Shown here piece after piece: positions 41,537 to 64,000 of a DNA stretch of 64,000 nt; the stretch's first letter is position 1; every line of letters begins with the position of its first letter. Location: positions 1 to 64,000 of the forward strand of contig JANQQK010000060.1 in NCBI GenBank assembly GCA_028289375.1, given 5' to 3'. The stretch comes from Phycisphaerae bacterium (GTDB taxonomy: Bacteria > Planctomycetota > Phycisphaerae > UBA1845). The translations under genes were made by a program, and so were the position numbers. The notes under the pieces were generated by a model that worked only from the letters and a program-made list of their open reading frames with translations, made no database searches and was not told the origin of the DNA.

Positions 41537-42405
41537 CACAGGGCGGTGATCAGCCATTCGAACGGCTCCAGAATGCCCCTTGGGGCCGAGTGCAGCGGAA
41601 CCGAGATGACGTTGTCGTCCTCGTCGGTTCCAAACCCGATGGCTCCGATCACGCTGGCGGCAAAGTAGGCCACGTTCGCAAATCGTGAGTCGCAGAGATT
41701 CCACAGACGATTCAGGTTGGTCTGAGCGAATGTGATCGGATCGTCAAACGACTGCGGGCAGTAGTCCGACTTGCACAGCACGACACCCACCGGCGTGTCG
41801 ACTTTGGTGTCCGTGCCAAGGCCTGTCAGTTGGTCAACATAGCTCATCAGCTTGAATGCGAAGAAGTCAGCCTGCACATTGCCCATCGCCGCCGCCGACG
41901 CGTCCACCAGCAGCATGATCCCGCGACTCTGTGTCAGCAATCCGCGAATGGCGGGATAACTGCCCGGTGCATCCAGTTCGGTCGCGATCGACTCGCCGGC
42001 CATGTCGGGCATGACCAGGTCGTAGAGATAGTCGGGACGGCGTTTGTGGGCGATCTGGCAATACGCCCAGTGCCACTGATCGACCTCGTTCGGCGTCTTC
42101 GGTGGGAAGAGACGCATGGCGAGATGGCCCATAACGTTCTGTTGCAGGTTGATCGAGAATGGGCCTTTGGGCACCGACTCGTATTCGCCCGCTCGCCGGG
42201 TGAGCATATCGAGCAGATACCCGAGGTAGACGGTTTTGCCGACGTTGCTGTCGCCGATGACCGTGACCATGTTCGGCAGGCGATTCTGCGTGAGCGCCTC
42301 CCGCGACATCGACAACGGCGCCGAGCAACCCGCACAGCAGTACGCGTCCTCCGCGTTCTCCTGCTGGCAGATCAGGCACTGTGTGGCACTTAATGCAATT
42401 GACAT
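41536..42405 (-). CDS. Zinc-ribbon GTPase of a GAP1-associated type
   Basis: A 289-residue protein. The N terminus has a zinc ribbon (C10, C13, C24 and C27: CLICQ and CCAGC). The GTPase part has P-loop GDSNVGKT (51-58), a switch-II-like MPDMAGE (D134), LLVDAS, and LCKSD (211-214) as the base-specificity motif. It fits TRAFAC-like GTPases of uncommon type linked to GAP1 proteins. Its ATG directly follows the stop of the FGE-like gene, and its stop overlaps the GAP1 start. Probably a switch in a multi-protein assembly; effectors are unknown. Confidence 0.85.
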   Translation of the reverse strand: MSIALSATQCLICQQENAEDAYCCAGCSAPLSMSREALTQNRLPNMVTVIGDSNVGKTVYLGYLLDMLTRRAGEYESVPKGPFSINLQQNVMGHLAMRLFPPKTPNEVDQWHWAYCQIAHKRRPDYLYDLVMPDMAGESIATELDAPGSYPAIRGLLTQSRGIMLLVDASAAAMGNVQADFFAFKLMSYVDQLTGLGTDTKVDTPVGVVLCKSDYCPQSFDDPITFAQTNLNRLWNLCDSRFANVAYFAASVIGAIGFGTDEDDNVISVPLHSAPRGILEPFEWLITAL

Positions 42406-44620: not shown

Positions 44621-47600
44621 ATGACTGATGCAAAGCTAGCGAAAACGGGACAGGAGTCCGCTGCGCCCGATAACGCGCACGACGATGCGCGGACGGATGT
44701 TGTGGCGTCTCATGATCAGGTCGCGGACGTTCTCTCAACCGTCACCGAACGCATCGAGACCATTCAGCGCAGCGTCACCGATTCGTGGAAACAGATCGAT
44801 AACTGGCGCGCTCGCGTCGAAGAATTTGCAGAAAAAGTCGGCCAGCGCGCAGATGAAGTCGACGCCGCGGATGCAGCCGTCCGAGAACGTGCGCAACAAC
44901 TCGACGCCCAAGCCAAACAGCAGCAAGACAACGCCACCGCGCTCACCGAACGCGATCAGTCCCTGCAGCAACGCCTGCAGCAGCTCGAACAGCAGCAGAA
45001 AGACCTGCAGAATCAGGCATCTGAAATCGAGGGTGCACGGCAGAAGCTCCAGTCCGAGAACGAACAAATCGCCAGTGCGAAGTCCAAACAGCAGTCCGAC
45101 GCCCAGAAGCTCGCCGACCGCGAATCATCACTCAAGAAGGAACTTGCCAACCTCGAGCGCATGAAAACGGACTACGCCGCGCGCGATCGCGAGTGGTCCG
45201 AACGCAACGCCAAGCTCGAAGAACGTCAGAAGAAAATCACCACAGCAGAGCAGTCCGTCGCCCAGCGCGAATCCGGGCTTGAGTCCAACAACGCCAAACT
45301 CGCCGACTCACAGAAAGCACTGGCCGACCAACAGAAGAAGCTGAACAGCGACGTCGAAACACTCAAGGCCCACAAAGCCCAACTCGACAAGCAAGCCGAA
45401 GAGCAGAAGAAGCAACACGAGCAGTCCAAGCAGGAAAAGGCCGCCATCGGTCAAGCCAATCAGCAACTCGATGCGCGAACGAAGGAGATTGAGTCACGAT
45501 CGGCCAAGCTCAACGAGCATCAGCAGGGACTCGAGAACACGGCCAGACAGCAGCAGCAAACCGCCGCCAAACTCGAGAAGCAGCAAGAGGACAACGAAGC
45601 GACAAAGCAGTCGCTCGAACAGCAGGCGATCGACATCGCCAAACAGAATCAGCATCTCGAACATCAACGAAGCGAACTGCTCAAGTTCAAGCAGCAACTT
45701 GAGTCTGATGGTCAGAAGCTGGACGATCAGCGCAAGCGTCTCGAGGCCGACACCAAACAGCACGCCGCCAATACCCAGCAACTCCAGGCCCGCAGCCAGG
45801 AATTGGATCAGAATGCCAAGTCCCTCGATCAGCGCCAGTCTGAGCTGACCAAACAACAGCAGTCGCTCGAATCGGCAAGCAAGGAGCTGGACGCGCAGAA
45901 GTCTGCGCTGACCAAGCAACATGAGCAGGTCACTGCCGCCGCTCAGTCGAACAAGGATCGCGAAGCGCAGCTATCCGCCACCCAAAAGAAGCTCGATGAG
46001 CAGAGTGCCCAGCTTCGCGAACAGGCCAAGAAGCAGGAATCCGACAACGCCGCCCTGCAGCAGGAAAAGGCCAAGCTCAACGATCGTGCCCAAAGTATCG
46101 CCGCCGGCGAAACCGAAATCGCCAAGACGAAGCAGGCCATCGAAGCTGATCGCAAAGCGCTCGACGAACACAAGTCCAAGCTCGCCGACGAAAGAAAGCA
46201 AGTCGAACAATCTCGGAAATCCGTCGCGGACGAAACCGCGAAGGTCACCCAGCGCGAACAGAAACTCGTCGAGCGATGTCAGCAGGTCGACAAGCAGTCT
46301 GCCGATCTGGCCAAAAGGTCAGCCGATCTCGACAAGCAAACCGCAGGCGTCGCCGATCAGCACAAGCAGTTGCAGCAACAGCAACAGTCGCTCGAGAAAA
46401 CTGCGAACGACCTGAAACAACAGGAAGCCCAAGCTGCCAAGAAGCAAGCGGATCTACAGGCCACCGCAAAGAAACTCGAACAGCAGCACGCAGACCTCAA
46501 GAAGCAGGCGGATGCGGTTGCCGAACAGCAAAAACACGCCGAGAAACGCGAAGCCGCTGTCCAAACAGCTGGCCAGAAAGTGCAGACCGAGCGGCAGGAA
46601 TTGTCGCAGCACCGTGACAAGCTGCGTCAGCAGGCGTCCGAACTCGACGCCCGAAACGAGAAGCTACAGTCACAGCATGCCGAGCAACAGAAGCTGCAAG
46701 CCGACCTGACGCAATGGAAGCAGCAGGCCGAGCAGGAAAGGAAGCAACTCGACGCCGCCAAGTCCAAAGTGGTGTCCGACACCGAGCAACTGCGTAAGGA
46801 ATCAGGACGTGTAGAGGCTGAGTCGAAGAAACTCGCCGAGCAACGCGAGAGTGTCGGCCGCGATCAGGAGCAGGTGGCAGAGTTGCGGCAGAAACTCACC
46901 GCCGACCGTGAACGAATCGACAGCGAACGCAAGCAGTTTGAAGACGCCCGCCAGCGCTTCCAGAAGGAAGTCGACCAGAGTCGCGACGAAGGCGAACGCT
47001 ACGCTGCCGAGCGCGAAATGCTCCAGTCCGAACGCGAACACATCGCCACCGAGCGATCGCAACTCAGCAGCGAGCGCGCCGAAATCGACAAGGCGCGCGC
47101 TCAAACCGAAGCACTCCAGCAACGCATTCGCGACGAACGCGAGGAAGTCAAAGCCGCACGCCTTGAAATCGAACAGCAGCGGCAGGCGATCGAATCAACC
47201 AGCGAGAAACTTGCCGAGCAAAAGGCCGAAGCAGACACCGAATCACAACGCGTGCAGGCGTTGAGCGAAAAGCAGAATGCCGAACTTGCCCAGCTCAAGT
47301 CCGAGCGTGAGGAACTGGCGGAAAAACGCCGTCAGATCAAGCTTGATCAGCAACGACTCGCCGACGAACGCGCCGAACTCGACGGAGAACGCGATCGCCT
47401 GACGTCACAGGTCGGCGAGCATCAGGACGAAGCCACGCAACTCGCCACCGAACGTCAACGCCTCGCGGCCGAGCGCGAAAAGCTGCAACTGCAACGCGAC
47501 GAACTGTCGGCCAAGCTGGAAAAGTCAGCAAGCGACCAGGCCACGCTCGAAGTCGAACGCGAGAAGGTCGAAGCCGACGCACGGCAGTTGGCTGACCGCG

Positions 47601-48754
47601 TGACCGAACTCGAAGCCGAGCGCGAAAAACTACAAAGCGAAAACAGCAAACTGCAGGCATTGAAGGACGACCTGCAGCAACAGCAGTCGACGCAGCAATC
47701 CGAGACAGCCGCCATCGCCGAGCAGCGACAAGAGGTCGAACAGCAGCAGGCTACGATCAAGCAGTTGCGTGCAGAGGTTGAATCCAAAGAGGAGCAACTC
47801 CGGAAGCAAACGGACGAGCTTGAATCACAGCGCAGGCAACTTGACGAACAGGCCGACGAACTCTCCAGGAAACAGAGTGAGGCGGCCAAGTCCGAAACGT
47901 CGGTCACCGAGCAAAGTCAGGCGCTCGAATCGCAACGGTCTGACATCGAGGAGCAACTCCGCGCCGTCGCCGAACGGGAGATGGCGCTGACGAGTGAGAG
48001 ACTCGCGTTCGAAACGGAACGAAAGATGCTCGAGGAGCATTGTCAGACACTGCAGCAGCAGGTTGCCGAATTTCAGGAAGGCGGCGTCGAGTCAGCCGAG
48101 TCTGATCAGAAGGCCGCCGCACGGAAGGCCGAGGTCGAGAAATGGGCAGAGGAGCTGTCCTCAGAGCGCAAAGCGCTGGAACAATGGCGTGATGATCTCG
48201 ACAAACACCGCCTCGCGCTGGAAGAACTCCAAACCACGATCACGCAGCAGCAAAACGAGATCGGCGAAATGACCAGCCAGGTTGCCGCCGCTGCCGAGGA
48301 AACGACAAAGCTGGTTGAAGGGTCCGAGCAGAAAGCAGAAAAGAGCGACACACAGGGACGAACGACCCCTACAGCGAAGAAGCAGGATCCCAAGGAGTCC
48401 TCCAGCCCGGTTGAGACTGGCGGCAAAGACAATAAGCCCAACGCCACCCCCAAGCCCAAAAAGATGCGGAAGAAGTCGGCCAGCGAGACTGTGCCGACGC
48501 CGAAGTCTGCTTCCAGAAAGCGCGTCGAACCAGAAGCCGCACCCGCTGACACAAAGGCCGAAACGCCTCCAGCCGACGACGATATTCTTGCCGGTCTCGA
48601 CGAGGAAACACTCGACAAACTACGCATGCTCCGTCGCATCAAGGGACCATCCAAGAGCGACGCCGATCTGCTCAAGATCATCGAGCAGGAGCAGGAACAA
48701 CCCGACCCATCAGGTCAGGGTAAGAAGAAGTGGTGGAAATTCCGCGGGGAATGA
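44621..48754 (+). CDS. Giant coiled-coil protein (1377 aa)
   Basis: Almost the whole protein (about 40-1240) is one coiled coil rich in Gln, Lys and Glu with heptad periodicity (for example LQQRLQQLEQQQKDLQNQ). It would be over 150 nm if extended. No P-loop or hinge of SMC type is present, so it is not an SMC protein. From about 1250 a Lys/Pro/Thr-rich linker follows, then an acidic-to-basic conserved-looking tail (DEETLDKLRMLRRIKG, KKKWWKFRGE). It has no signal peptide and should be cytoplasmic. It is divergent from the GTPase operon, and the tail layout matches the 291-residue coiled-coil protein, so it may form a filament or scaffold for that system. Nucleotide repetition gives spurious ORFs in other frames. 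Confidence 0.85.
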   Translation: MTDAKLAKTGQESAAPDNAHDDARTDVVASHDQVADVLSTVTERIETIQRSVTDSWKQIDNWRARVEEFAEKVGQRADEVDAADAAVRERAQQLDAQAKQQQDNATALTERDQSLQQRLQQLEQQQKDLQNQASEIEGARQKLQSENEQIASAKSKQQSDAQKLADRESSLKKELANLERMKTDYAARDREWSERNAKLEERQKKITTAEQSVAQRESGLESNNAKLADSQKALADQQKKLNSDVETLKAHKAQLDKQAEEQKKQHEQSKQEKAAIGQANQQLDARTKEIESRSAKLNEHQQGLENTARQQQQTAAKLEKQQEDNEATKQSLEQQAIDIAKQNQHLEHQRSELLKFKQQLESDGQKLDDQRKRLEADTKQHAANTQQLQARSQELDQNAKSLDQRQSELTKQQQSLESASKELDAQKSALTKQHEQVTAAAQSNKDREAQLSATQKKLDEQSAQLREQAKKQESDNAALQQEKAKLNDRAQSIAAGETEIAKTKQAIEADRKALDEHKSKLADERKQVEQSRKSVADETAKVTQREQKLVERCQQVDKQSADLAKRSADLDKQTAGVADQHKQLQQQQQSLEKTANDLKQQEAQAAKKQADLQATAKKLEQQHADLKKQADAVAEQQKHAEKREAAVQTAGQKVQTERQELSQHRDKLRQQASELDARNEKLQSQHAEQQKLQADLTQWKQQAEQERKQLDAAKSKVVSDTEQLRKESGRVEAESKKLAEQRESVGRDQEQVAELRQKLTADRERIDSERKQFEDARQRFQKEVDQSRDEGERYAAEREMLQSEREHIATERSQLSSERAEIDKARAQTEALQQRIRDEREEVKAARLEIEQQRQAIESTSEKLAEQKAEADTESQRVQALSEKQNAELAQLKSEREELAEKRRQIKLDQQRLADERAELDGERDRLTSQVGEHQDEATQLATERQRLAAEREKLQLQRDELSAKLEKSASDQATLEVEREKVEADARQLADRVTELEAEREKLQSENSKLQALKDDLQQQQSTQQSETAAIAEQRQEVEQQQATIKQLRAEVESKEEQLRKQTDELESQRRQLDEQADELSRKQSEAAKSETSVTEQSQALESQRSDIEEQLRAVAEREMALTSERLAFETERKMLEEHCQTLQQQVAEFQEGGVESAESDQKAAARKAEVEKWAEELSSERKALEQWRDDLDKHRLALEELQTTITQQQNEIGEMTSQVAAAAEETTKLVEGSEQKAEKSDTQGRTTPTAKKQDPKESSSPVETGGKDNKPNATPKPKKMRKKSASETVPTPKSASRKRVEPEAAPADTKAETPPADDDILAGLDEETLDKLRMLRRIKGPSKSDADLLKIIEQEQEQPDPSGQGKKKWWKFRGE

Positions 48755-48788: not shown

Positions 48789-49601
48789 TCATTCGCCGTT
48801 GCGGGCGTCCTCAAAGGCACTGAAGTCGTCGAGGTCGATGTCGTCATCGATATCAAAATCGAACGCAACGCAACCGTCGGTGAGTTCATCGTTCTCGTTG
48901 CCGGTGGCACAATCCTGCAGGCGACCGAAGTCGAGCAGATCCAGATCATCATCACCGTCACCATCGCCCAGCTGAGCTGGGATCGTGCGGACTTCCGATG
49001 CTCCAAGCGTCCCCTTGATATCGCATCCAGCCACGATGCCCGATGCGACAGCAGTCACGGAGAACTGACCAAGTTCCTCGGGGATGGAAACCATCGTCAT
49101 GACGCTTGGGCCGAGCACGCGGAAGCGAAAAGTCGTCACCAGCAGTCCGTCCGGCGTAGCCAACGCAGGGCCTGGTCCGAATGGCGGCGGTGCCAACTGC
49201 TGATACGCATCGAAACGGCAATCGCCATCATTGCCGGGTACCTCGCCAAACGGCGCGTTCAAACCATCCAATCCGGAGTCATTGGGAAACAGTGTGTCCA
49301 GCCATTCGTACGGACCGTTGTCGACGTTCCCGAGAAGTTGGAGTTTCTCCGGATCCCACTGCAGCAAGATTTGCAGCGCGGACATTGGCTCATTGGATAT
49401 CCCGTCTGCGGAGACAGCGAACAGATCAAGGTCGATCGTGTCGCCCACCATGGCCATGCTCTCATCGGAACGCCATTCGAGGTTCACCCGATTCGAAATG
49501 TTCTCGCAGAGTTGGGCTGACGCGGTGGACGCAGCGAGTGCGACACCGGCCAATCCACATGCGATGGATCGCATGCAGCGTTGGGTCAGGTTGTTTTGCA
49601 A
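48789..49601 (-). CDS. Exported cohesin-like/dockerin-like protein
   Basis: A 270-residue secreted protein. The start is the TTG 49601 (GGGAG ten bases upstream) or the ATG 49574 without a clear site; either gives a signal peptide ending TASA. The mature part is a beta-sandwich like a cohesin (SALQILLQWDPEKLQLLG, LLVTTFRFRVLG). The C-terminal 60 residues resemble a type I dockerin: DGDGDDDLDLLDFGRLQDC and DFDIDDDIDLDDFSAFE, two EF-like loops with Asp at the calcium positions. It converges with the giant coiled-coil gene 34 bp away. Probably part of an extracellular assembly with the next three genes, which have related modules. Confidence 0.8.
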   Translation of the reverse strand: MQNNLTQRCMRSIACGLAGVALAASTASAQLCENISNRVNLEWRSDESMAMVGDTIDLDLFAVSADGISNEPMSALQILLQWDPEKLQLLGNVDNGPYEWLDTLFPNDSGLDGLNAPFGEVPGNDGDCRFDAYQQLAPPPFGPGPALATPDGLLVTTFRFRVLGPSVMTMVSIPEELGQFSVTAVASGIVAGCDIKGTLGASEVRTIPAQLGDGDGDDDLDLLDFGRLQDCATGNENDELTDGCVAFDFDIDDDIDLDDFSAFEDARNGE

Positions 49602-50356
49602 GATTGAGTGACTCCCGCCCCGCCAAGTATTACCGGACCAAACCGCACACATGAGACACAAGCGGTGCGAACCGATCCGGCGTGATGAATCTTTCCCCGA
49701 CGAGCGAGTATAGGCGGGCAGGACGCACCAATGCAAGGTCCGTGACCAGCTTGGGGCGATTTGAGTCCACACGAGCCGGGCGATCAAGAGGGCCCCGTGG
49801 TTCATGCTGGTTTTCATCGCTGCTTTAACCGGGCGGGGAAGCCGGGATCTTGGGTCTGATCTGGACCGCAAGGTCCCGAAAACGCCAACACCGGGTAAGG
49901 CAAATGATTGCGTCCGAATCGGTCAATGAGTGCGGACGTGTATCGGCGGCCGATGATGTCGAATCTTGAAAGTAACCCACGATCGTGGTACACTTCGCAG
50001 TGGCGGAAGAAGGCGTAACTCCAAGTTCTTGGGGCTGGTTGTGGCGTTATTCCGAGATGTCCGGCGAATGCAGGCGGTCGTTTGGGTGAGGCCCATCGGG
50101 GTGGCCGGCATTTTTGGAACGAACCATTTCTTCAAGTTTCAGTGGAATTCGCTTGGCATTTCCGCCATTTCGCCCGTCGCAGCGGCAGGCTGGTCATCGT
50201 GGTCCGGCATGCGTGCGTGTGTGGGTTCAGAAGCGTGGTGAAATGGGCGTGGGTTGTCTCTCGGCAATCTGATCTTCAAGAGGGTACATGGACACAGCGT
50301 ACAGGTTCGCGTTGGACTGCGTGAACCGACCAAGTTCAGGGAAAAGGACGAAAGAA
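49602..50356. other. Divergent 755-bp intergenic region
   Basis: No gene is supported. Small frames on both strands lack family-like sequence. A strong sigma70-type promoter is at 49966-49994, so the plus-strand gene would have a leader of about 355 nt. Minus-strand promoter elements of the cohesin-like gene were not identified. Confidence 0.6.
49966..49994 (+). promoter_or_regulatory. Sigma70-type promoter with extended -10
   Basis: TTGAAA (49966-49971) and TACACT (49989-49994) are exactly 17 bases apart, and TGG directly before the -10 makes it an extended type. It faces the 939-residue protein gene, whose ATG is at 50357. The long leader may carry regulation. Confidence 0.6.
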
Positions 50357-53176
50357 ATGCAAAGTCGGATATGGCTTGGCCTGTTGGCGTTGGTGGTGTT
50401 CGTCGGCGCGCTCGGTACGACGCCAGTCGTGGCGCAGGAATTCTGCTTCAACGGGGTCGATGACGATGGCGATATGCTCGTCGATTGTTTCGACGACGAT
50501 TGCTGGGGTGACCCAGTATTCTGCTGTGGCGATGGGACGTTTATCTGTGACCCCATCGAGTTGAGCACCTGTTCCTGCCCGCAGGATTGTTCGGTTACCG
50601 ACCCTGATCAGGAAGAGGTTCGGTGCGAAGACGGGTTCGACAACGACTGTGACGGCCTCATCGATGGCTGCGATCAGGATTGTGTCGTGCTCGTGGAGAC
50701 ACGTTGTGGGGACGGTGTCGACAACGACTGTGATACGCTCTTTGACTGTGATGATCCCGATTGTGTGAATGCGCCCCAGTGCTGCGTTGTGTCGGAACCT
50801 GGAACGGAGTTGACCTGTAACGACGGATTGGACAACGACTGCAATGGCGACGTGGACTGCGACGACGCCGCGTGCGCTTCGCTTCTGGTTTGCACATGCC
50901 CGCCACCCATGGGTAGCGGGACATGTGACCCCACCGAAAATCCGTGTAGCTGTCTTCCTGATTGCGGTTCTCCCGAAAACATGGGCGAGGTAACTTGTGA
51001 CGACGGCATCGACAACGACTGTGATGGCTTGTTTGACTGTGATGACGTTGATTGCTTTGACGCGTGTTGTGGCAATGGTTCTTTGGATCCGCTGGAGGAG
51101 TGCGATGACGGGCCTGGCAATTCGGATACTCTGCCCGACGCCTGCCGTACCGATTGCACTGAGGCGACTTGCGGTGACGGAATAATCGACACGGGTGAGG
51201 ACTGCGACCTTGGCCCTGCGAATTCGGACGATCCCGAAGCCACCTGTCGCACCGACTGCACCTTCCGCCGTTGCGGCGACGGTATTTGTGACAGTGGGCC
51301 ATCAATGGAGAACAACTGCAACTGCGCAGATTGCATCGACGTCGACGAGGGCGACACCGAAGTCAGTTGCGCCGATATATTCGATAACGACTGTGATGGA
51401 CTTCTCAACTGCAGCGACCCGGACTGTTTCGCCAGTCCGGACTGTTGCGGTGATGGCATTTGTCGCCCGGGTGAGAATCAGTGCAGCTGCCTGGCTGACT
51501 GCGGTGCGACGGTCGAAGATCCGGAGGCCACTTGCGATGACGGTCTGGACAACGACTGTGATGGCGATTTCGACTGTGATGACGTGGATTGTCACGGAAC
51601 GCCGGAATGCTGTGGCAATGGAATTCAGGACACGATCGAGGAATGCGACCTGGGATTGGCCAATTCCGACGATCCAGGGCTTCCCGGAGCAACCTGCCGT
51701 ACGGATTGCACCTTCGCAACGTGCGGAGATGGGATTACCGATGTGGGTGAGGAGTGCGACGGAGCGGATGATTTGTCGTGCCCCGGTGGATGTAATTCCA
51801 TGTGCGAGTGCCCGCCTTGCGGTGACATTGGATGTGCCGTCGACATCAGATTTACCGCTCCCGCGCAGGTGACGCTGAACGAGGAGTTCGAAGTGACCTT
51901 GCGGATCAATTCGATCACGGGCGTTGCTGAACCATTTAGCGGCCTGAGTGCCGTCATCATTTGGGATCCGACGGTTTTTGAGTTCATCGAGTACATTCCC
52001 GACACCGAGTTCGCGTACCCGTACGAATTCCTTGGCGCTGGTTTGCCGGACGATTCCTCTGGCGATGGATTCAACGATACTTTTGCTGACGGGGATGCGT
52101 ATTTCCAGGCATTGTCACAGCTTCCGCCAAATCCGCCGGCCATCGCACCCGTTGGGGCTGGCCTGATTGTGGCCAAGTTCCGCTTCCGCGCGATCGGTGA
52201 AGGTGGTGCCTCGGAAATCGGCTTCCGCCGCGACCTTTTCTCCGCCGTGACGACTGCGGTCACCGACGAAGCCGTGGCTGGAATCAGTATTCTCGATACG
52301 GCGAACCCGATCTCGATCACGGTTCCGTGCAATGAGTGTGCGTGCACCTTGGACGAGAATTTCGATCCGCTGCCCGGCATTAGCGTCTGCATGCATGAAA
52401 CGTGTGACTTCGCAGGAGGCTGTACGTCGTTCCAGGTCGGCTATGGCGATCTTGTTGAGCCATTCTTGTTGCCGCCGCTTGTGCAGACCGACGACATTCT
52501 CTGTGCCGTTGCGGGCTTTGGCAGTTACTGTGTTTGTCCAAACGCAGATATTGCGGGCTGTGTTGCCAGCGGACTTCCGATCGGCACAAACGACATCCTC
52601 GCGGTCGTGGAGGCTTTCGGTGGTGCCAATCCATGTGGTTGTCCTGTGTTCCCGCAGGCTGCGGCAGCCAGTAACGCAAATCAGGTCGGGGCGATCCACA
52701 TGGTGAGCGATGACAAGCCGGCAGTGGTCGAGTTGCAACCTCGCTCGCGCGTCGTACGCCCCGGTGAAGTCGTCGAGATTGACGCCTTCGGCCGAGGGTT
52801 TACGGCAGTAACTGGTTTCGAACTGGCGGTTGCCGCCAGCGAAATGCGACTCGGAACGGTCACCCTCGACCATGTCGCCGTGGACACACTGCGATCGAAC
52901 TATGTCTTCCGAGATGTGGACCATGTTCCGCTGACGGATATGGAATTCGGGCGTATCGGCAGCGCATCCCTTGGCGGAGCGGTCCATGCATCGAAATCGA
53001 GCCCCGTGTACCTCGGTACATTCACGTATCGTGTCAGCGATAATGCCGTAGGCTCGATCCGTTTCGGCGTGGACACGCATCTGAGTGCATTCTGGAAATC
53101 GTCCATTGAGGAACACCGGATTCAGACCGCTGACGACGTCGTCATCATGGTCACCGTCGAGAAGCCAAGCCGATAG
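50357..53176 (+). CDS. Exported Asp/Cys-rich repeat protein with cohesin-like and dockerin-like modules
   Basis: A 939-residue secreted protein. ATG 50357 is preceded by AAGGA; the signal peptide ends TPVVA. The first half holds about six units of the type CDDGIDNDCDGLFDCDDVDC, like the putative metal-binding motif of MopE (copper-binding) proteins, alternating with Myxococcus-type Cys repeats (CGDGIIDTGEDCD). Next comes a cohesin-like sandwich (nt about 51840-52320, SAVIIWDPTVFEFIEYI). Then a duplicated dockerin-like module (52442-52645: LVQTDDILCAVAGFGSY and NADIAGC plus IGTNDILAVVEAFGG) and a final cohesin-like domain with YVFRDVDHVPLTD and the end HLSAFWKSSIEEH. Calcium or other metal binding is likely. 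Function inferred to be structural or adhesive. Confidence 0.8.
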   Translation: MQSRIWLGLLALVVFVGALGTTPVVAQEFCFNGVDDDGDMLVDCFDDDCWGDPVFCCGDGTFICDPIELSTCSCPQDCSVTDPDQEEVRCEDGFDNDCDGLIDGCDQDCVVLVETRCGDGVDNDCDTLFDCDDPDCVNAPQCCVVSEPGTELTCNDGLDNDCNGDVDCDDAACASLLVCTCPPPMGSGTCDPTENPCSCLPDCGSPENMGEVTCDDGIDNDCDGLFDCDDVDCFDACCGNGSLDPLEECDDGPGNSDTLPDACRTDCTEATCGDGIIDTGEDCDLGPANSDDPEATCRTDCTFRRCGDGICDSGPSMENNCNCADCIDVDEGDTEVSCADIFDNDCDGLLNCSDPDCFASPDCCGDGICRPGENQCSCLADCGATVEDPEATCDDGLDNDCDGDFDCDDVDCHGTPECCGNGIQDTIEECDLGLANSDDPGLPGATCRTDCTFATCGDGITDVGEECDGADDLSCPGGCNSMCECPPCGDIGCAVDIRFTAPAQVTLNEEFEVTLRINSITGVAEPFSGLSAVIIWDPTVFEFIEYIPDTEFAYPYEFLGAGLPDDSSGDGFNDTFADGDAYFQALSQLPPNPPAIAPVGAGLIVAKFRFRAIGEGGASEIGFRRDLFSAVTTAVTDEAVAGISILDTANPISITVPCNECACTLDENFDPLPGISVCMHETCDFAGGCTSFQVGYGDLVEPFLLPPLVQTDDILCAVAGFGSYCVCPNADIAGCVASGLPIGTNDILAVVEAFGGANPCGCPVFPQAAAASNANQVGAIHMVSDDKPAVVELQPRSRVVRPGEVVEIDAFGRGFTAVTGFELAVAASEMRLGTVTLDHVAVDTLRSNYVFRDVDHVPLTDMEFGRIGSASLGGAVHASKSSPVYLGTFTYRVSDNAVGSIRFGVDTHLSAFWKSSIEEHRIQTADDVVIMVTVEKPSR

Positions 53177-53203
53177 GTTCGGGCGAACACCTTCACCAAC
53201 ATC

Positions 53204-53241
53204 AAAGGCTGACGGGTCAGCGTGATCCGTCAGCCTTTTTT
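53204..53241 (+). terminator. Rho-independent terminator after the 939-residue protein gene
   Basis: AAAGGCTGACGG (53204-53215) pairs perfectly with CCGTCAGCCTTT (53227-53238) with an 11-base loop, and a run of six T follows. It ends the 50357-53176 transcript. Confidence 0.9.
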
Positions 53242-53345
53242 CGTGCATGACGCCTGTGCACGGCGATGAACGATTTGCGTTCGCTCTGCCAGGAAATCGT
53301 TCATTTTCGATGCCACCGCGTGTCCTGGGATTTATCGGACGACGA

Positions 53346-53374
53346 TTGCATCTGCGCTCGACGTCTGATATAGT
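53346..53374 (+). promoter_or_regulatory. Sigma70-type promoter of the 2185-residue protein gene
   Basis: TTGCAT (53346-53351) and TATAGT (53369-53374) are 17 bases apart; TGA before the -10 gives an extended type. It lies about 180 bases before the GTG at 53552. The rest of the 375-bp gap (53177-53551) holds only the terminator of the previous gene. Confidence 0.65.
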
Positions 53375-53551
53375 GCGTGCAATGCTCGGAGGGTTGCACG
53401 AGCATCATTCTGGGGACGCGGTATCCCGAGGGAACTTTCACGGGTAGGAACATCACTCAATCATCACGTGCGTCATCAGCACCATGCGACGACGCCGAAG
53501 GCCTGAGTCTACCCGCATCATCAGACAAAGCGTGAAAGGAAAGGATCGCCT

Positions 53552-56500
53552 GTGAGTAACAACTGTTTGATCCAGCGAGCCGGATTGTGTGTCCTGTTGA
53601 CCGGATGTCTTCTCAGTGCTGCTGAGCGAGATACCGTCGCATTGCCTGTCGAGATTCAGCAGACTTTCGCCGCCGAATCGACGGTGCTGAGCCTCGAACT
53701 CGATGGCGTGCTCGTCACGAAGCAGGGTGTAAGTTTGGCCGTTGAACGCAATGGTGAATCACTCGCGGGTCCTGCATTGCAGTTCAACGAGACGCTCACC
53801 GACACGCCGATACAGGCGTTGGTGACGAACGATGCCTACCGCGGCTTACTCGCGGGCACCATGCTCGTCGCGGACGAGTCGATCACGCTGAGCGGTCGAT
53901 CGGCGCGGTCGTTTTCACTGGATGGGCTGCACTTGGTTTTCGATCCTGCCGGCAGCCTCGATCATGAGATCCTGCTCGTTGGTGATCGCGGATGGCGAAC
54001 GAAGGTCTTCGGAGTCGATGGCACGAATTCCGAGTTCGATGTTCAGACAGGCCAACTGACGATTTCCGGTCGGGTCTCCTGGACGGCAGAGATGGTTCAG
54101 GCCTTGGGCATCGAGCGATACGCAGATCAGGCCATTGGCACCATCGTCATCACGATGAACATGGTCGTGACCGAAACACGCGAAATCACGCAGGAAGGGG
54201 CCATTGAGTCGGTCGTGGTGAACACCGAGCCAACAGCTGCCGGTGGTTTCCCATCGCCAGGGCCTGATGTCATCGTCGGTGACCTGCCTGCCACAGCACA
54301 GCAGGGACGTCGGGGAACCTATCCAAACGGTATCGTCGGTATTTCCGTTGGTACGACTTCCTGCAACAAGGGTGATGTTCCGTTCAACTGGTTTGCCCTG
54401 CCGAACGTGGATCACCCGGTCATTCCCTACAACCTGTATCGCCTGCGAACCGAGAATGGCAGTGATCGCTTTGAGCAGATCGGCTGGAGCTGGATGAAGC
54501 ATGGATTCACCGCGCTTCAGCAGAACATCTGCGGTTTTGGTTGTACTTCCAGCGGCACGGGTTCGCTGTTGGGCGTTGGTTGCTCCGATCCGTATAGCGT
54601 TGGGCGTAATGGTGGACAGTGTGGTCTTGGCGCTCGCGAACAGGTCAATCCGTACACCGGTGCAATGCCGGGTGGACCAAACCTGGGCGGCAGTCCGTGT
54701 GGCTCGTCAAACTACCCCTCACGCGATCACCGTGGTCACGTGTTTGATGGTGCCTCCCTCCGTTGCCAGGTTCGCGACTCAGACCTGATTCCGGCGCAGA
54801 ACGTTGGTGCTCGCTATTTCTCTGAGGCGCAATACGTCAACCCGCACGAGTACAACAATCCTCAATCGCGCGCGAACCAGAACATGAACAACAATGTGTC
54901 TTACCGCGAACTGTCGGTGAGCATGCCTTCCAACGGAAACTACAACTTCTCCAACGTCGGCGCGACCGTTCGAGAGCAGCCGGCTGTCGAGGCGTGGCCG
55001 GGAGCGAGTTCGACGCTGATCGAGCCTGCATTCGATGTCGATGGCCGTGCCTTCCTGTACTACGAAGTGACCGATATCGGTGGCGGCTTGTGGCACTATG
55101 AGTACGCCCTTTACAACATGCACCTTGATCGGGCCATTCAGTCGTTCAGTGTGCCGATTCCATCGGGCGTCATATTGAGCAACGTGCAATTCCATGCTCC
55201 CCCGAACCACGACGATGTGGGCGTTGACCCGTCCGAGGAGTATTCGAACACGCCATGGACGTTCACGAACAGCGGTGGAATCGCAACATGGGAGACCGAG
55301 ACGTTTGCTCAGAACACCCAGGCCAACGCCATTCGCTTCGGTACGCTTTACAACTTCCGATTTGACGCCAACGCGCCGCCTCAAAACATCAACTCGACGG
55401 TCGGCTTCTTCAAGATCGCCGGTTCTGCCAATGTCGCGACGCAGGCGCCGCAGGCGGTCGGCCCGCAGGATTGCAACGGCAATGGCATCGAGGACAGCTT
55501 GGAAATCGCAAACGGTCAGGCGCAGGACTGCAACAGCAACGGACGGCCTGATGACTGTGACCCGTTGGATCAGCTTCGGACTCGGCGCGTCGCCAGTGGT
55601 TTGACCAATCCGGTCGGCGTGTTCGCACCTCCGGGCGATACGGATCGGCTGTTCATCGTTGAGCAGGCTGGGTTGATCAAGATTCTCGATTTGACGACTG
55701 AAACCGTGCTGCCGACGCCGTACCTCAATGTAACCGGCATCACGAGCGGTGGTGGCGAGACCGGTTTGTTGAGCATGGCCTTCCATCCTGATTGGGAGAC
55801 CGACACGCGGTTTTTCATCTACTACACGCGTGTTCAGGGCGGGACCGATCCGACGGTGGTGGCAGAGTTCACGGCGAGCAGCCCGTCAGCCAACACGGCC
55901 AACGCTGCGTCACGGACCGATCTGCTGGTCATCCCGCAGGATTTCTCGAACCACAATGGTGGCGGAATGTACTTCGGTCCGGATGGCTATCTCTACGTCG
56001 CGACCGGTGACGGCGGAAGTGCCAACGATCCAAACAACCGCTCACAGGACACGAGCTCACTGCTGGGCAAGATGCTTCGCCTCGACGTTGACACGCCCGG
56101 TACGTACAGCAGTCCCGCTGGCAACCCATTTGTTGGCGCAGCCGGTGACGACGAAATCTGGGCGTACGGTCTTCGCAATCCGTGGCGGTTCAGCTTCGAC
56201 CGTCTGACCGGTGACATCTACATCGGCGACGTCGGCCAGGATGCCCGCGAGGAGATCGACTTCGAGCCGGCTGGTTTCGCCGGTGGCGGTAACTATGGCT
56301 GGGACTGCAAAGAAGGTTCGATTTGCACGCCAACGAGCAGTGGCGGGTTTGGTTGTTCCTGCGGTCAGGCGGGCCTGATCGATCCGATTCACGAAATTGC
56401 TCACGGAACGCTGGGCGTCTGCTCAATCACCGGTGGTCACGTCTACCGTGGCTGTGCGATCGGCGGCCTGTCCGGGACGTATTTCTTCTCCGATCTGTGC

Positions 56501-59500
56501 GGCAACTTTGTCCGCACGTTCCGCTACGACGCCATCACCGACACCGTCAACGAATTGACCGATCGCACGTCCGAACTGGCGCCGGACGCCGGATTCCTCG
56601 GACAGATCGTCTCGTTCGGTGAGGATGGCGACGGCGAGATGTACATCGTGTCGCACAGCGGCGACATCTTCAAAATCGAGTCGGCCACCGGCGGCCCGCA
56701 GTGCGGTGATGGTACCGTCGATCCGGGTGAGGAATGCGATGACGGCAACACGACGCCAGGCGATGGCTGCAGTGCGACCTGCACGAATGAAGGGTGTGGT
56801 TTCTGCGGTGACGGCATCGTCAGCATCGACGAAGCCTGCGACGACGGGAACAACAACTCTGGTGACGGCTGCAGCTCGACGTGTGTGACCGAGACGGCCA
56901 ACGCTTGTGCGGATGCTGCCCTGATCAATGAAGGAACGTGGGCCTTCAACACGTCTGGCGCGACCACAGACGGACCTTCGCACGCTGCATGCGCAGAGTC
57001 CGGTGACGGTGGTGCAACGGTTAACGACATCTGGTTCCAGTACATCCCCACATGTACCGGACAAATGACCATCGACTTGTGTGATTCCACGTACGACACC
57101 GACCTGGTCGTCTACGACAGCTGCACTTGTCCGACCAACTCGAGCACGCTCCTCGCCTGCAATGATGATGCCGATTGCGCGCTTCAGTATCGCTCGCGCC
57201 TGACGAATGTCAGTGTTACGCAGGGCAATTGCTACCTCATCCGCGTCGGCGGTTGGCGCAATGCAGGCGACGAAGGTCCCGGAAACATGACGCTGTCCAT
57301 TTCGGGCGGTACTTGCAACGACCTCTGCGGAAATGGCATCGTCGAGGATTGTGAAGAATGCGACGACGGCAACAGCAATCCGGCCGATGGCTGCGACAAC
57401 TGCGTCATCACCCAGTCCGACTGCGACAACGACGGCACCAGCGACGCGGAAGAGATTGCCAACTGCGACGCAGCCGATCCGCGTTGTAAAGACTGCAACA
57501 GCAACGGTATTCCGGATGGCTGCGAATACACCGACGACCCCGGCATCGATTGTGCCGGTGGGCCGATCGGCAGTTCGTCGTCCGGCATGAGCTTGTTTGT
57601 CGCCAACAACTGCTTGTTCTGCCATAGTGCAGACGGCAGCGGCGGGACTGGACCGGATATTCGCGACAAGACACGTGTCGAAATCTGGAACAAGATCGGC
57701 CCATACGGTGCACACCCGGGCAGTCAGTTCCCGCAGTTCACACTGACCGACTACGCCAACCTTGAGGCGTTCCTTGCCCAGGGTGGTAGCCGCGGTCGTC
57801 CCGACTTCATTCCGGATGAATGTCAATCCGGGTTCGCCAACTGCGACGGCGACAGCATTCCCGACGCTTGCGAACTGGAGAATGGCACGCAGGTGGACAT
57901 CAACTACAACGGTGTTCCCGACGATTGCGACGGCTGTGTTGGCGACGGCGACTGCGATGACGGTTCGTTCTGCAACGGTGCGGAAATCTGCGACAACGAA
58001 TCGTGCGTCGCCGGTTCCGATCCATGTCCGGGTCAACTCTGTGACGAAGGATCTGATGCCTGCGTCGATTGTCTCGACAGTGGCGACTGCGACGACGGCC
58101 TGTTCTGCAACGGTGCAGAGACCTGCTCAGGCGGTACCTGCCAGAGTGGTTCTTCTCCATGCGGCGTTGGCCAGTTCTGCATCGAGAGTGCTGACGAATG
58201 TGTTGATTGCATTGTCGACGCGCACTGCGATGACGGCGCCTTCTGTAACGGTGCCGAGACGTGTGTGAACGATGTTTGCGTCAGCGGCAGCGATCCTTGT
58301 CCGGGTCTCGCGTGTGACGACGGAGCGGATACCTGCCTGTGTGACGACAATGGCGATTGCGATGACGGCGTGTTCTGCAACGGTGCGGAATTCTGCGACG
58401 GCGGTGGCCAGTGTCAGGACGGTGCTGCTCCGTGCAATCCCGGCGACATCTGCGATGAGGACGGCGAGAACTGTCTCTCCGCGTCGCGCATGTTCCTCGT
58501 GCCCGCCGGAACCGATCCGTCGGCTACGACACCGGGTGAGAATATGCAGCTTGTCGTTGACGCCGGCGATCGCATGACGCTGGATGTCTACCTTGAGAAC
58601 CAGGCCGCTCCGATGAGTTCGTACGACGCCACCTTCGCCTGCAACTATGCGAGTTCTGAAGGTGCCCTGGGTGCGACGTTCGTTGACGGCTCCTCATCGG
58701 TGGACATTGGACGCTCGAATTATGTATTCGCGGGCACGTCCGCCTTCCCTGTGCTTGATCAGGGACAGTGTGACGAGTCGATCCCGTGCTCTGCGTCCAA
58801 GGAATGCCCGCCGGGCAACTCGGCCTGCGTCGACACCAACAGTGACGATGTTCCGGACACGTGTTCGGTTGAACCCCCACGTCTGGGGGGTGTTTCGCTT
58901 GCGGGTGACATTACGTTCACCGAACCGCGTTACCTCGGTTCAATTCAATTTGATTTCCCAACGTCGGCCCGCGGCCAGTACGCCATGGGATTCGTCTGCA
59001 CGCCGGATGATGGATGTCAGTTGACCACGACGCTTGTGCAGAATGCCTCGCTGCAAGCACTGCCCTTCACCAGCGACGGCCTGATTGTCACAATCGCCGT
59101 CGGTCGGTGCTGCCTGCAGGATGATGGTGATCCGCAGCTTGAGTGTTTCGAGTTAACGTCCGGTGAGTGTGCGGGACTGGGCGGTGCATTTACAGCCGGG
59201 CAGGATTGCAGCGGCGACGACCCGTGCGGTTGTCAGTCAGACTGTGATTGCGTCTTCCCATTCCAGGAGGGTGTCTCGACCGGTTCGGACACTTGTCTGC
59301 AGCAGACGTGCGGCCCGAACGGATGTGAAGAATTCGTGACGCGCTATGGCGACATCATCGAACCATTCGGCGGGCTGGTGCAGACCAGCGACATCCTGTG
59401 TGCGGTGGCGGCATTCGGTAGCTACTGTGATTGCCCGAACGCTGACATCGCAGGCTGTGTGGTCTCCGGCGTACCAGTCGGGACCGACGATATCCTCGCG

Positions 59501-60109
59501 GTCGTGGATGCGTTTGGCGGTCTCAATCCGTGCGGATGCGAGGTTCCCATGGGTGGTACGTCGGCCGCTTCAAGCGAGCCAGCCATCGTCTTCGACGCAC
59601 CGGTGCACTCGGTTAGTCCGGATGCCCCAGCCACCATCGCGCTTGTCCCGCAGAGTCGTCGCGCGGTGGCCGGCGGCACGGTCTCGGTCGATGTCTTCGT
59701 TGAGGGCGTCAGCCAGATGAGTGGCTATGAGTTGGGACTGACGGCTGGATTGACGGGCGGAACACGTCGGCTTGGGTTCAACCCGGCGGATGTGAGCCGC
59801 GTCTCGATCGACAGCACGCGCAGCGACTTCGTCTTTGTCGCGGCTGACAACATCCCGTTGACTGATGAGCAAGGCGGGCGTCTCGGTGCCGTGTCGCTCT
59901 CGGGCGGAGCCGATGTGACCGGCGGCAAGGTGGCGTACCTCGGAACGTTCGAGGTCACGGTTCCACAGGCAACCGGTCAGTTGACGATTTCTCTCGACGC
60001 CGCCGTCTCCGGCCTCTGGAAATCGTCGATCGAATCGATCGCGATGCGTCCGATCAAGCCCGTTGTGATTACGGTCGTTCAGTCGGAAATGCGACTCGGA
60101 TCACGTTAG
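53552..60109 (+). CDS. Giant exported PQQ-type sugar dehydrogenase / cytochrome c / Cys-rich / cohesin-dockerin-like protein
   Basis: A 2185-residue protein from a GTG start (AGGAAAGGA upstream), with a signal peptide. Residues 1-670 are an exported region of unknown fold. About 678-1045 form a glucose/sorbosone dehydrogenase-like PQQ propeller ([58 protein letters not shown]). Then Cys-rich repeats, a PPC-like domain (about 1118-1253) and a c-type haem domain with CLFCH at 1354-1358. Four CNGAE-type Cys repeats follow (about 1460-1643). The C-terminal cassette (nt 58487-60109) has a cohesin-like domain ([15 protein letters not shown]), a dockerin-like duplication (59345-59542) and a last cohesin-like domain ending [12 protein letters not shown]. 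Electron flow from PQQ to haem on the cell surface is inferred; the metal and cofactor ligands were not all checked. Confidence 0.85.
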
Positions 60110-60148
60110 CCGATCGTGAGGCTCGATGACTGATTGATGAAACATAGT

Positions 60149-60186
60149 GGCCGCTGGGGAATAGCGATTCTCCAGCGGCCTTTTCT
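60149..60186 (+). terminator. Rho-independent terminator after the 2185-residue protein gene
   Basis: GGCCGCTGG (60149-60157) pairs perfectly with CCAGCGGCC (60172-60180) and TTTTCT follows. It ends the previous transcript. The rest of the 344-bp gap (60110-60453) holds no gene that I can support; no clear promoter was found. Confidence 0.85.
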
Positions 60187-60453
60187 CATGGACCAAGACC
60201 TGAGTGAATTCGTTCATCCAATCGCCCCGTGGACGTGGCCGCCCGGTGCGAAATGGGCCCAATTCCATGCGGAAATGCTTGTTTTTGGACGAGTGACGGC
60301 CCAAAATAAGGAGCTGAGGGTATGCAACGTGGTCAACGCTTGCCAGCCCATGTGGTGGGTGATTCAGCATTCCCGTTCCGCACGAAACATCGGGGAATCG
60401 GCCAGTCACAGGAAATGGGCGTCTTTTCGGGGAACGTCGATGGAGGTGTCAGG

Positions 60454-63400
60454 ATGATGCAACAGACAACGGCAATGAAGAACATCAAGATGTCGCAAAT
60501 TCTCTGCGCATTGGTGGTCATGGCGACGTGCGTCATGGCTCAGCCCGTCGGCGACGTGGCACGCGAGGCGGCGACAACGCCGCCCAACATGCTCACCGAC
60601 GAACTGTCCTATGAAATTGTCGATCGTGTCGAGTGGAAGGCTGCCGCCAACGCCCACTTTGATGTCGCCGACTCCACCCTGCAACGCCTGACCGTCCCCG
60701 CCGGACGACCGGCTGCCTTCGCGACGCGCGCGGAACTCGGCCAGCAAGCCCGCACGATTCGATTCGAGAAACACTCGCTGCGCAGCAATGATTTCCGTGT
60801 ACTCATTCAAGCCGACGCAAGTGGCCAACTCACCGAGGTGGATGCTCCGCCGGTCAGCACGTACCGCGGCAGCGTCGATGGTCTGCCCGATGCCTACGTC
60901 CGCGCCGCGTTCTACGACGGCAAGCTCAGTGCGATGGTCACATTCGACGACGAGACGTACGCGATCGAGTCGATTAAGGGTGCCGTCCCCGAGGCGGACA
61001 ACGACATGTACGTCGTCCATCGCAGCTCCGACGCGCTCAACTCGCGCGGAGGAACCTGCGGCGTGAAGGACGATGAGGAAATGGCGCGGCGGATGTTTGA
61101 ACCGTTACCACCATCTGCCGCCGGCACAGGCCTCGAGATCACCGAGATCGGCATCGATGCGGATCACTCGTTTTATCTGCTCAACGGATCCAACGTGGTC
61201 AACACCGTGGTGGATGTCGAGCGCGTCATGAATGGTTTCTCCTCTGGTTCGACCACAGGCGTCGCTGGCCCCTACGCGATCCTGGACATCACTTTTGAAA
61301 TCACCACCATTATCGTCCGAACCAACCCGAACGACCCGTACACGACCAGCAATGCCGATTTCCTGCTCGATGATTTTCGCGATGTGTGGCGTACGCTTCC
61401 CGAGTCGGATATTCGCCGGGACGTCGCGCACCTTTTCACGGGCATCCCACTCGATCCACCCACGATCGGTATCGCATCCGTTGGTACCATTTGTCAATCC
61501 GTCAATGGATTTCATTACGGTCTGAGCGAATCTCGATTCTCAAGCAACATTGTGAGCCGCGTCGCCCTGACCGCCCACGAGATCGGGCACAATTACGATG
61601 CCTTGCACTGTGATGGCTCCTCGACGTGCCGGATCATGTGTTCCGGGCTTGGTGGTTGTGCAGGTCTCAGTCCGCTGACCTTCGGCACCAGCGCCAGCAA
61701 CCGCATCATCAATTACCGCAATGCCATCGGTTGCCTCGAACCGTTGCCGCCCGTGCAGACCATTCCTTTCTTTGATGACTTCCCGACGAATTCGCTCAAT
61801 AGCAATCGGTGGACCTACGTGGATGGCGTCTTTGCAAGCACCGGAGCGTCGAATCCGCCAAGTGGTTCCCGCGCCATGAACCTTGATGCCACCGGGGCCG
61901 ATCTGTACGAAGACAACGAAGCGCGGACGAACTTCATTGATCTCAGCGGAGTCGCGGAGGGCTCTGTCTCCTACTTCACGCAGCACATCGGCGTGGAGTC
62001 GGGTGAATCGCTCATCGTGGATTACTGGTCTGTCGTCGGCGCGACAAGACGGTGGATCGAACTGAATGAGATCATCTCCGATGGTACCAATCAGACCGAC
62101 TTTGTGTTCCATTCACATACGCTGCCGGCCGATGCCCTGCATGGTGAATTCCGACTGCGTTTTCGCGCGAACGTCGACCAAACGAACGACGACTGGTTCG
62201 TGGATGACCTGACCGTATCGACGGATGTCCCTCCGACGATCATCATTCAACCGCAGGACATCGACGCATGCGCCGGCGATCTTGTCATTATCGAGGTGGT
62301 CGCCGACGGAACCGCTCCATTGACCTACCAGTGGTTCAAAGATGGGGTACCGCTCATCGGCCAGGAAAACGCAGCATTGATCCTCAACAGCGCGTCACTG
62401 AGCGATTCAGGAAGCTATACCTGCCAGGTGACCAACAGTGAGGGACAGGTGTTGAGCGATCCAGCCATCCTGACCGTCCAGGATGCGGCAGGATGCGATG
62501 ATGGTTTGTTCTGCACTGGTGTCGAAACGTGCTCCGCCGGCGTTTGCGTGTCGCCCGGCTCGCCCTGCACTGATCCCGCCATTGCGATTTGTGATGAAGA
62601 CGGCGACGCCTGCTTGCCGACCCCGCGTGTGTTCCTCGTTCCCGCCGGAACCAGTCCATCAATGACCACGCCGGGGCAGGACTTTGAAACCGTCGTCTCC
62701 GGAGCGTCCTCATTTGTTGTTGAGGTGTTTCTTGAGAACGATTCTGCTGAAATCACGGGCTATACCGTCGCCGCCGCTTGTTCCTCAGAAAGCAGCGAGA
62801 TCGGGTCGCCCGACATTACGTACGTCCCGGAATCCGCTGATGTTGATCTTGGCCGCCCTGATTACGTATTTGCTGGTCTTGTGAACTTCACGCCAATCGA
62901 TGAAGGCCAATGCGACGACGGCATCTCCTGCGCCAGTTTCGCCGATTGCCCGATGGGCAACAGTGAGTGCATCGACACGGACATGGACACGGTTCCGGAT
63001 ACCTGCAGCGTTATCCCGCCGCGTACGGCAGCGGTCCTCTTTAACCCTATGGATGCACTCACGTTCCCGATGGCTCGATATGCTGGTCAGTTCGAGTTCC
63101 AGGTTCCGTCCAATGCTTCGGGTGAGTACCTGATTCAGGCGATCTGCCTGAGCGGTGATGGCTGCGACACCGACCTGACGGTTCTCAACGACGGCACTGA
63201 GAACCCGCCACTGCTCCTCGCAGACGGACTGCGCGTCACGGTCCCCGCTGGCCGGTGCTGCTATGACGGCGATGGGTCCGCGCCGCTCGAGTGCGTCGAA
63301 ACCACTGCGTTCGAATGTGCCAACACCTTCTCCGGCGCCTTCGCTGCCGGGCAGACTTGCAGCGGTGCTGATCCGTGTGCGTGTGAGACCGACTGCGACT

Positions 63401-64000
63401 GCGTGGTTCCCTTTGAATCCGGCGTCACCGGCGGTTCCGATGTCTGTCAGGTCCAATCCTGCGGAGGCGGCGGGTGCAATGAACTTCCGGTCCGCTATGG
63501 CAACATCGCCGAGCCATTCACTGGCCTTGTCCAGACGGACGACATCCTTTGCGGCGTGGCCGCATTTGGAAGCTACTGCGCATGCCCCAACGCGGACATC
63601 GCGGGGTGCATCGTTTCGGGTATTCCGATCTTGACCGCCGACATTCTGGCGTTGGTCGGTGCTTTCGGCGGTTTCGATCCGTGTGGCTGCCCGACGCCAC
63701 CCTCGGCTGCAACCGAAGGTGCCATCACAGTCCCAGCCCCGATTCGATTCACAGGTGATGGTCCTACTGCGGAGATCGTCCTGTCACCTGACCGTCGAAG
63801 CGTTCTTCCGGGGGATGCCGTCACCATCGATGTGCATCTTCGTAACGTCGAAGGCGTGACTGGATATGAAGTGGCACTGGATGCAGTGTTGGATACACGT
63901 GTCGGCAGGCAGGCAATCGCGACCAAACCGGTCGTCGACACCGCCCGTCGTTCCTTTGTATTCGAGGACGGAGATCATTACCCGCTTATCGACAATGAGT
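60454..64000 (+). CDS. Exported latent metzincin protease with Ig-like and cohesin-dockerin-like modules (partial at window edge)
   Basis: Open reading continues past position 64000 (1182 codons seen). GGAGG seven bases before ATG 60454 fixes the start; the signal peptide ends CVMA. The prodomain resembles reprolysin propeptides and carries a CGV cysteine-switch at C202. The catalytic motif is HEIGHNYDALH (H375, H379, H385) with Met-turn RIMC (M395); the eighth position, usually Gly in metzincins, is Asp. Then a jelly-roll-like part, an Ig-like domain (VVADGTAPLTYQWFKDGVPL), one Cys repeat, and the same cassette as in the upstream gene (FLVPAGTSPSMTTPG from 62626, dockerin-like duplication 63496-63693). 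Extracellular proteolysis is likely; the Asp may alter activity. Confidence 0.85.
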   Translation, partial: MMQQTTAMKNIKMSQILCALVVMATCVMAQPVGDVAREAATTPPNMLTDELSYEIVDRVEWKAAANAHFDVADSTLQRLTVPAGRPAAFATRAELGQQARTIRFEKHSLRSNDFRVLIQADASGQLTEVDAPPVSTYRGSVDGLPDAYVRAAFYDGKLSAMVTFDDETYAIESIKGAVPEADNDMYVVHRSSDALNSRGGTCGVKDDEEMARRMFEPLPPSAAGTGLEITEIGIDADHSFYLLNGSNVVNTVVDVERVMNGFSSGSTTGVAGPYAILDITFEITTIIVRTNPNDPYTTSNADFLLDDFRDVWRTLPESDIRRDVAHLFTGIPLDPPTIGIASVGTICQSVNGFHYGLSESRFSSNIVSRVALTAHEIGHNYDALHCDGSSTCRIMCSGLGGCAGLSPLTFGTSASNRIINYRNAIGCLEPLPPVQTIPFFDDFPTNSLNSNRWTYVDGVFASTGASNPPSGSRAMNLDATGADLYEDNEARTNFIDLSGVAEGSVSYFTQHIGVESGESLIVDYWSVVGATRRWIELNEIISDGTNQTDFVFHSHTLPADALHGEFRLRFRANVDQTNDDWFVDDLTVSTDVPPTIIIQPQDIDACAGDLVIIEVVADGTAPLTYQWFKDGVPLIGQENAALILNSASLSDSGSYTCQVTNSEGQVLSDPAILTVQDAAGCDDGLFCTGVETCSAGVCVSPGSPCTDPAIAICDEDGDACLPTPRVFLVPAGTSPSMTTPGQDFETVVSGASSFVVEVFLENDSAEITGYTVAAACSSESSEIGSPDITYVPESADVDLGRPDYVFAGLVNFTPIDEGQCDDGISCASFADCPMGNSECIDTDMDTVPDTCSVIPPRTAAVLFNPMDALTFPMARYAGQFEFQVPSNASGEYLIQAICLSGDGCDTDLTVLNDGTENPPLLLADGLRVTVPAGRCCYDGDGSAPLECVETTAFECANTFSGAFAAGQTCSGADPCACETDCDCVVPFESGVTGGSDVCQVQSCGGGGCNELPVRYGNIAEPFTGLVQTDDILCGVAAFGSYCACPNADIAGCIVSGIPILTADILALVGAFGGFDPCGCPTPPSAATEGAITVPAPIRFTGDGPTAEIVLSPDRRSVLPGDAVTIDVHLRNVEGVTGYEVALDAVLDTRVGRQAIATKPVVDTARRSFVFEDGDHYPLIDNE

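Follow-up and report, generated by a model that had tools for sequence, protein, structure and literature searches.

A diverged dockerin without calcium loops, paired with a predicted cohesin fold, as a C-terminal tail on about 25 exported proteins of a Phycisphaerae bacterium

The window, that is, the whole 64,000-nucleotide stretch analysed here, corresponds to bases 1-64000 of contig C22 in a 4.99 Mb Phycisphaerae assembly of 94 contigs that is 99% complete. Toward its end lie the genes P1 to P4 (Table 1), described in the initial annotation as an array of four consecutive genes that begins with a cohesin-like/dockerin protein of 270 aa. All four proteins are present and P1 has both modules, but P1 is shorter than described and is divergent from the other three genes, which rules out an operon of four. 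The same block is found on contig C97 of G001, the sister-species MAG 'Phycisphaerae bacterium OFTM371' (class Phycisphaerae), in which a divergent P1 is followed by P2-P3-P4-P5 and P1 to P4 share 61-68% identity with those of the window.

Table 1. Genes P1 to P4 and their modules, in positions of the window
Feature	Position	Strand	Description and basis
P1	48789..49574	-	261 aa from ATG at 49574; signal-peptide-like start, cohesin-like domain, calcium-loop dockerin
P1 C-terminal dockerin-like pair	48792..48968	-	DxDxDxxxDxxD loops intact, read directly in the sequence
P2	50288..53176	+	962 aa; signal peptide, acidic double-disulfide repeats, cohesin-like domain, variant dockerin, C-terminal cohesin domain
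P2 cohesin-like domain, 5' of the unit	51800..52342 (borders approximate)	+	PF00963 E 0.071, under the cut-off; resembles P1
P2 variant dockerin unit	52442..52642	+	profile A1
P2 domain B, C-terminal predicted cohesin fold	52718..53173	+	profile A3, E 9e-52
P3	53552..60109	+	2185 aa, exported; GSDH domain, DUF4215 disulfide repeats, weak cytochrome c match, C-terminal cassette
P3 glucose/sorbosone dehydrogenase domain	55637..56545	+	PF07995 E 3e-33
P3 domain A, cohesin-like with Cys-rich insertion	58541..59056	+	domain B profile E 4.5e-6; DxxRxxYVF motif in common
P3 Cys-rich stretch running into the unit	59285..59344	+	alignment and paired-Cys analysis
P3 variant dockerin unit	59345..59539	+	profile A1; hhalign; structure model
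P3 domain B	59618..60088 (model); 59627-60094 (profile)	+	residues 378-534 of the cassette model; profile A3
P4	60322..64221 (passes the window end at 64000)	+	1299 aa; exported M12B metalloprotease, Ig domain, C-terminal cassette
P4 M12B reprolysin-like domain	61147..61632	+	PF13688 E 7e-15
P4 domain A, part matched	62680..62916	+	domain B profile E 3e-5
P4 variant dockerin unit	63496..63690	+	profile A1
P4 domain B	63766..64212 (beyond the window end)	+	profile A3, E 5.5e-43

P5 adjoins P4 in G001 as well as here. It lies past the window (L009:4637-8110, about 64637-68110 of C22) and encodes an exported protein of 1157 aa with long Cys-rich repeats, CEGGEVCNPATGICEAQPDAPSGTSC, and an IPTL-CTERM sorting tail. 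Beside P1, positions 44621-48754 of the window encode a coiled coil of 1377 aa consisting of almost pure Gln/Glu/Lys heptads, and its single Pfam match, to FBF1, is weak. At 40358-42405, on the minus strand, genes for a GAP1-N2 GTPase-associated protein and a Double-GTPase are adjacent to each other and near an FGE-sulfatase-like gene.

P1 ends in a dockerin with ordinary calcium loops and therefore does not carry the variant unit of the other three proteins. Its cohesin-like part (aa 23-186) matches the G001 orthologue of P2 (E 1e-17), and a Pfam search gave no match to the whole protein or to its dockerin. P2 matches NF033662 (E 3e-22). Variant units had been located from the sequence in P2, P3 and P4, each followed by a cohesin-like domain, and both claims hold: the units lie at those three places with 77-80% identity to the P3 unit, and one profile finds all three C-terminal domains. 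The cassettes of P3 (58487-60109) and P4 (from 62626) can be aligned end to end at 48% identity, and their sister position in the tree of tails supports the duplication that had been suggested for them.

The unit of 65-67 residues belongs to a genome-wide family with about 25 copies in its own genome and 24 in G001 (profile A1, E down to 1e-36). By these genome-wide profile matches, a chance explanation of the units is excluded. G004 has a single copy, and apart from these three genomes no match at 1e-12 was found among 298 genomes sampled from the class. As judged from this sampling, the calcium-less form is confined to one genus, plus the one G004 copy. The G004 sequence (L079, JANQQE010000001.1) is titled Alphaproteobacteria, groups with this Phycisphaerae family and is probably mislabelled.

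Each unit consists of two tandem loop-helix repeats ending in DI(L)xxVxAFG. The proposal that it is dockerin-like receives no direct help from Pfam or NCBIfam, which make no dockerin call on the variant units (Dockerin_1 is absent in 13 members scanned), or from a direct profile-profile comparison of the unit with eight dockerins of this genome that Pfam does recognize (set A6), which gave no match. The connection is found instead through bridge units in G020 and G014 (set A5), for example YGDVNNDGNIDIFDVLCALDGFAG, which retain calcium loops. The variant profile A1 matches A5 across its full length (hhalign probability 98.1, E 1.1e-13), and A5 in turn matches the Pfam-positive dockerins of A6 (E 9.3e-6). 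Since calcium-loop relatives in G020 connect the variant units to Pfam-positive dockerins in this way, the unit is, as far as profiles can tell, a diverged dockerin that descended from the calcium type. The same genome has 43 PF00404 matches of other types, and several of them lie near the C-terminus with a common NGxxPxxxxW tail.

The predicted structure of the unit is consistent with this descent. The model was built from 23 alignment rows, has a middling pLDDT of 72.9, and places helices at 34-42 and 67-77, where they are expected. When it was compared with 239 PDB chains, a Z of at least 2 was reached for four dockerins only, the best being 5lxv_B (Z 4.1, rmsd 2.8 over 55). A match at Z 4.1 to a model would prove little alone, and because a Foldseek search with the same model gave nothing at E below 0.5, we read the four matches as no more than supportive. 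A sequence search of solved structures with the unit and with domain B as queries gave nothing meaningful.

The calcium loops are where the unit departs from its relatives. An EF-hand loop is kept in 0 of 43 units of the genus, as compared with at least one in 8 of 9 sequences of A5 and 8 of 8 of A6. Loop 1 has 14 or 16 residues and loop 2 has 16 to 31, as against the canonical 12. No variant unit has Asp or Asn at position 3 of loop 1, 26 of 42 have Asn, Gln or Ser in place of Asp1 of the same loop, and position 5 of loop 2 is Gly in all 40. Position 10 is Thr in 41 of 42 first loops and 39 of 40 second loops, and positions 10-11 are Ile-Phe in the calcium-type relatives. Asp12 remains in all loops and Asp1 remains in loop 2, which leaves room for metal binding of a weak or unusual kind. 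The inserted loop residues and the Cys linker of the initial annotation are thus both real, but the calcium ligands are lost and not merely interrupted.

The cysteines of the unit occur in pairs. The loop-1 Cys co-occurs with the Cys just before the unit (preceding RR) in 36 of 37 and the odd Cys of loop 2 with a CxC tail in 37 of 37, counts that are not independent events because the copies are related. The first Cys of the linker co-occurs with the second Cys of the upstream DCDC motif without exception (three rows read by eye). Losses are also paired: the helix-1 and linker Cys are both lost in L016, and the DCDC/linker pair was lost along the L091 branch. The simplest reading of this covariation among related copies is that the pairs would form disulfides that hold the loops.

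C-terminal to the unit is domain B, with about 150 residues. In a model of the P3 cassette (540 residues, 20 alignment rows), confidence is high in this last domain and pLDDT is low around the unit. The modelled domain superimposes on the cohesin 4uyp_A with Z 13.3 and rmsd 2.6 over 131 residues, and nearly all of the top 50 entries are cohesins. Domain B is thus predicted to be a cohesin fold, a nine-strand jelly-roll, in line with the identity first assigned to it, and this fold is unseen by sequence methods, since none of 18 members scanned matches the Pfam cohesin family (PF00963) and NCBIfam gave no cohesin call on the domain either. Of the 51 family genomes, 34 contain it according to its profile A3, with up to 54 copies; a search at 1e-8 of 293 genomes from elsewhere in the phylum, with the best 13 candidates of each genome scored, found none. 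Some small secreted proteins of the family consist of domain B alone, and in others it follows different domains. Domain A of P3 and P4 is homologous to domain B according to the profile matches of Table 1, and this relationship gives P2, P3 and P4 the same order of cohesin-like domain, dockerin-derived unit and cohesin.

The unit and domain B form a fixed tail of about 230 residues, with a linker of roughly 10-60 residues between them. Wherever the end of a carrier is intact (23 of 23), domain B comes next after the unit, and no more than about 16 residues lie between it and the end of the protein; one carrier has a second, N-terminal unit. By its distribution in the predicted proteins, the cassette is a C-terminal tag that recurs across the genome, on about 25 exported proteins unrelated to one another. 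Besides the GSDH domain of P3 and the M12B protease of P4, the carriers include a subtilase (S8 protease) and a di-haem oxidoreductase, and further ones have lamin tail domains (L128, L135), P-domains with MAM (L130), an HYR-like domain (L141), beta-helix and FG-GAP. No glycoside hydrolase, CBM, cellulase or scaffoldin was found among the scanned carriers.

A small protein, L138 (G000:C27:15000-19062), is scaffoldin-like, in that a variant dockerin comes after two domain-B-like cohesins; the protein is cut by the contig end. Beside it is a frame of 846 aa that ends in domain B and has no dockerin.

The tree of tails places P3 beside P4 as its sister (support 99/97). Each of them has its own G001 orthologue, so their duplication predates the split of the two species, and the long-loop subtype expanded further within each species. 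Between orthologues, the unit has a dN of 0.16 and 76% identity, and domain B has a dN of 0.45 and 50% identity, with dS saturated. On these values no part of the cassette is better conserved than the unit, which appears to be under strong purifying selection. A degenerate relic is ruled out, as a merely decayed unit would not be the best conserved part. In other genera, a dockerin-like pair directly precedes domain B in 19 of 20 long proteins, which were hand-picked and read by eye and are not a random sample, and the loops vary between genera. This position in other genera suggests that the dockerin-cohesin tail, found across the family, is of old standing there, and that the plug without calcium loops arose late, at the level of one genus. 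Another long-loop dockerin type, FADAGGAFGACPVDGFSNIHDRNHALTCFSG, with two symmetric halves, occupies the same position in L144-L153 (G060, G059, G021), and up to 54 domain-B copies occur in a single one of these genomes.

We consider it about an even bet (roughly 0.5) that the two-module tail couples the approximately 25 exported proteins by means of a dockerin-derived plug and a cohesin socket, with disulfides in place of calcium. The disulfides would have taken over from calcium in holding the two recognition helices, and the plug would then no longer need metal. The uniformity of the plugs on many proteins suggests a shared partner: all of them would be accepted by one shared group of cohesins. 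This group would most likely take in the cohesins in the tails of other carriers, as well as their additional ones upstream. In this way proteases, oxidoreductases and adhesive domains would be linked extracellularly, as chains or as a matrix. Such coupling would resemble that of the cellulosome, except that it would have no dedicated scaffoldin and that the scanned carriers include no cellulases. On the other hand, domain B appears far less conserved than the unit in the orthologue comparison, which is unexpected for a shared receptor, and the cohesin fold serves other adhesion roles too. The full version of this reading, in which a dockerin lineage moved from calcium to disulfides and its redox-held plug and own socket join about 25 exported proteins into a scaffoldin-less extracellular matrix, is put forward more tentatively.

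The tail may alternatively be a sorting or secretion signal, with a machine recognizing the uniform unit or the final beta-sandwich after cohesin binding was lost. We regard this as unlikely, although it shares with known sorting domains a constant place at the extreme C-terminus of unrelated exported proteins and would suit a uniform unit beside a variable domain B. The exosortase route, for which this genome has two exosortases, is ruled out for the cassette proteins, since the tail has no terminal transmembrane helix. Against a signal, the two modules have their origin in a binding pair, the family has small secreted proteins with only domain B, and each half of the unit retains the symmetric Thr10-Asp12 and helix motif. 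Still less probable is that the unit binds its own neighbouring domain B within the chain as a rigid clamp, giving long extracellular proteins a stable end. The two modules are adjacent and inherited together, and the linker is long enough for folding back, but the unit does not track the divergence of domain B as a private partner should, and no interface can be read from the model. That the loops still bind calcium through other ligands, which would make the unit an ordinary dockerin with long loops, is the least credible reading: the retained Asp residues and the lengthened, more acidic loops of related genera agree with it, and the absence of Asp or Asn at position 3 of loop 1, the invariant Gly at position 5 of loop 2 and the frequent replacement of the loop-1 Asp1 go against it.

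To our knowledge, a need for calcium is taken as part of what defines a dockerin, and a literature search for calcium-independent disulfide dockerins found none. If the coupling reading is true, a natural lineage that lost the loops, retained symmetric residues of the recognition type and acquired Cys pairs would show how a metal-dependent interface can be converted, and calcium-independent parts for protein coupling would become available. It would also support cohesin-dockerin coupling in planctomycetes for broad extracellular assembly and not for cellulose breakdown.

Compared with type I dockerins (PF00404) and cohesins (PF00963), the cassette has the duplicated helix motif, the symmetry of recognition positions and the predicted cohesin fold. 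In contrast, it lacks EF loops, has added Cys pairs, and both of its modules fall under the Pfam cut-off. Since a calcium loop is kept in 0 of 43 units, we do not file the unit as a type I dockerin, despite the cohesin-dockerin anatomy. Cellulosomes differ in that no cellulases, CBM or scaffoldin accompany the scanned cassette carriers.

In X-module-dockerin dyads, the X-module precedes the dockerin. The XDoc dyads of scaffoldins such as CipA are similar to the cassette in having a beta-sandwich that adjoins a dockerin at the chain end, whereas the beta-sandwich of the cassette comes after the dockerin and is itself predicted to be a cohesin fold. PEP-CTERM and IPTL-CTERM proteins likewise have a common tail on unrelated exported proteins of one genome; the cassette tail is instead a folded, two-domain structure of about 230 residues without a transmembrane helix.

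The nearest published idea is the 'planctosome' of freshwater Phycisphaerae (Nemodlikiaceae), a hypothetical calcium-dependent cohesin-dockerin complex proposed as a single anchor-adaptor-peptidase complex, with cohesin and dockerin in one adaptor chain (Andrei et al. 2019, PMC6461901). It comes from the same class, and cohesin and dockerin share one chain in both systems. The lamin tail, P-domain, HYR-like and M12B domains of the cassette proteins, which also figure in the planctosome proposal, are a further likeness. However, the cassette dockerin has no calcium loops, forms a fixed dockerin-cohesin tail, and is found on about 25 carriers that include oxidoreductases as well as proteases. 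Taken with these comparisons, the cassette looks like a repurposed form of the plug-and-socket system that builds cellulosomes.
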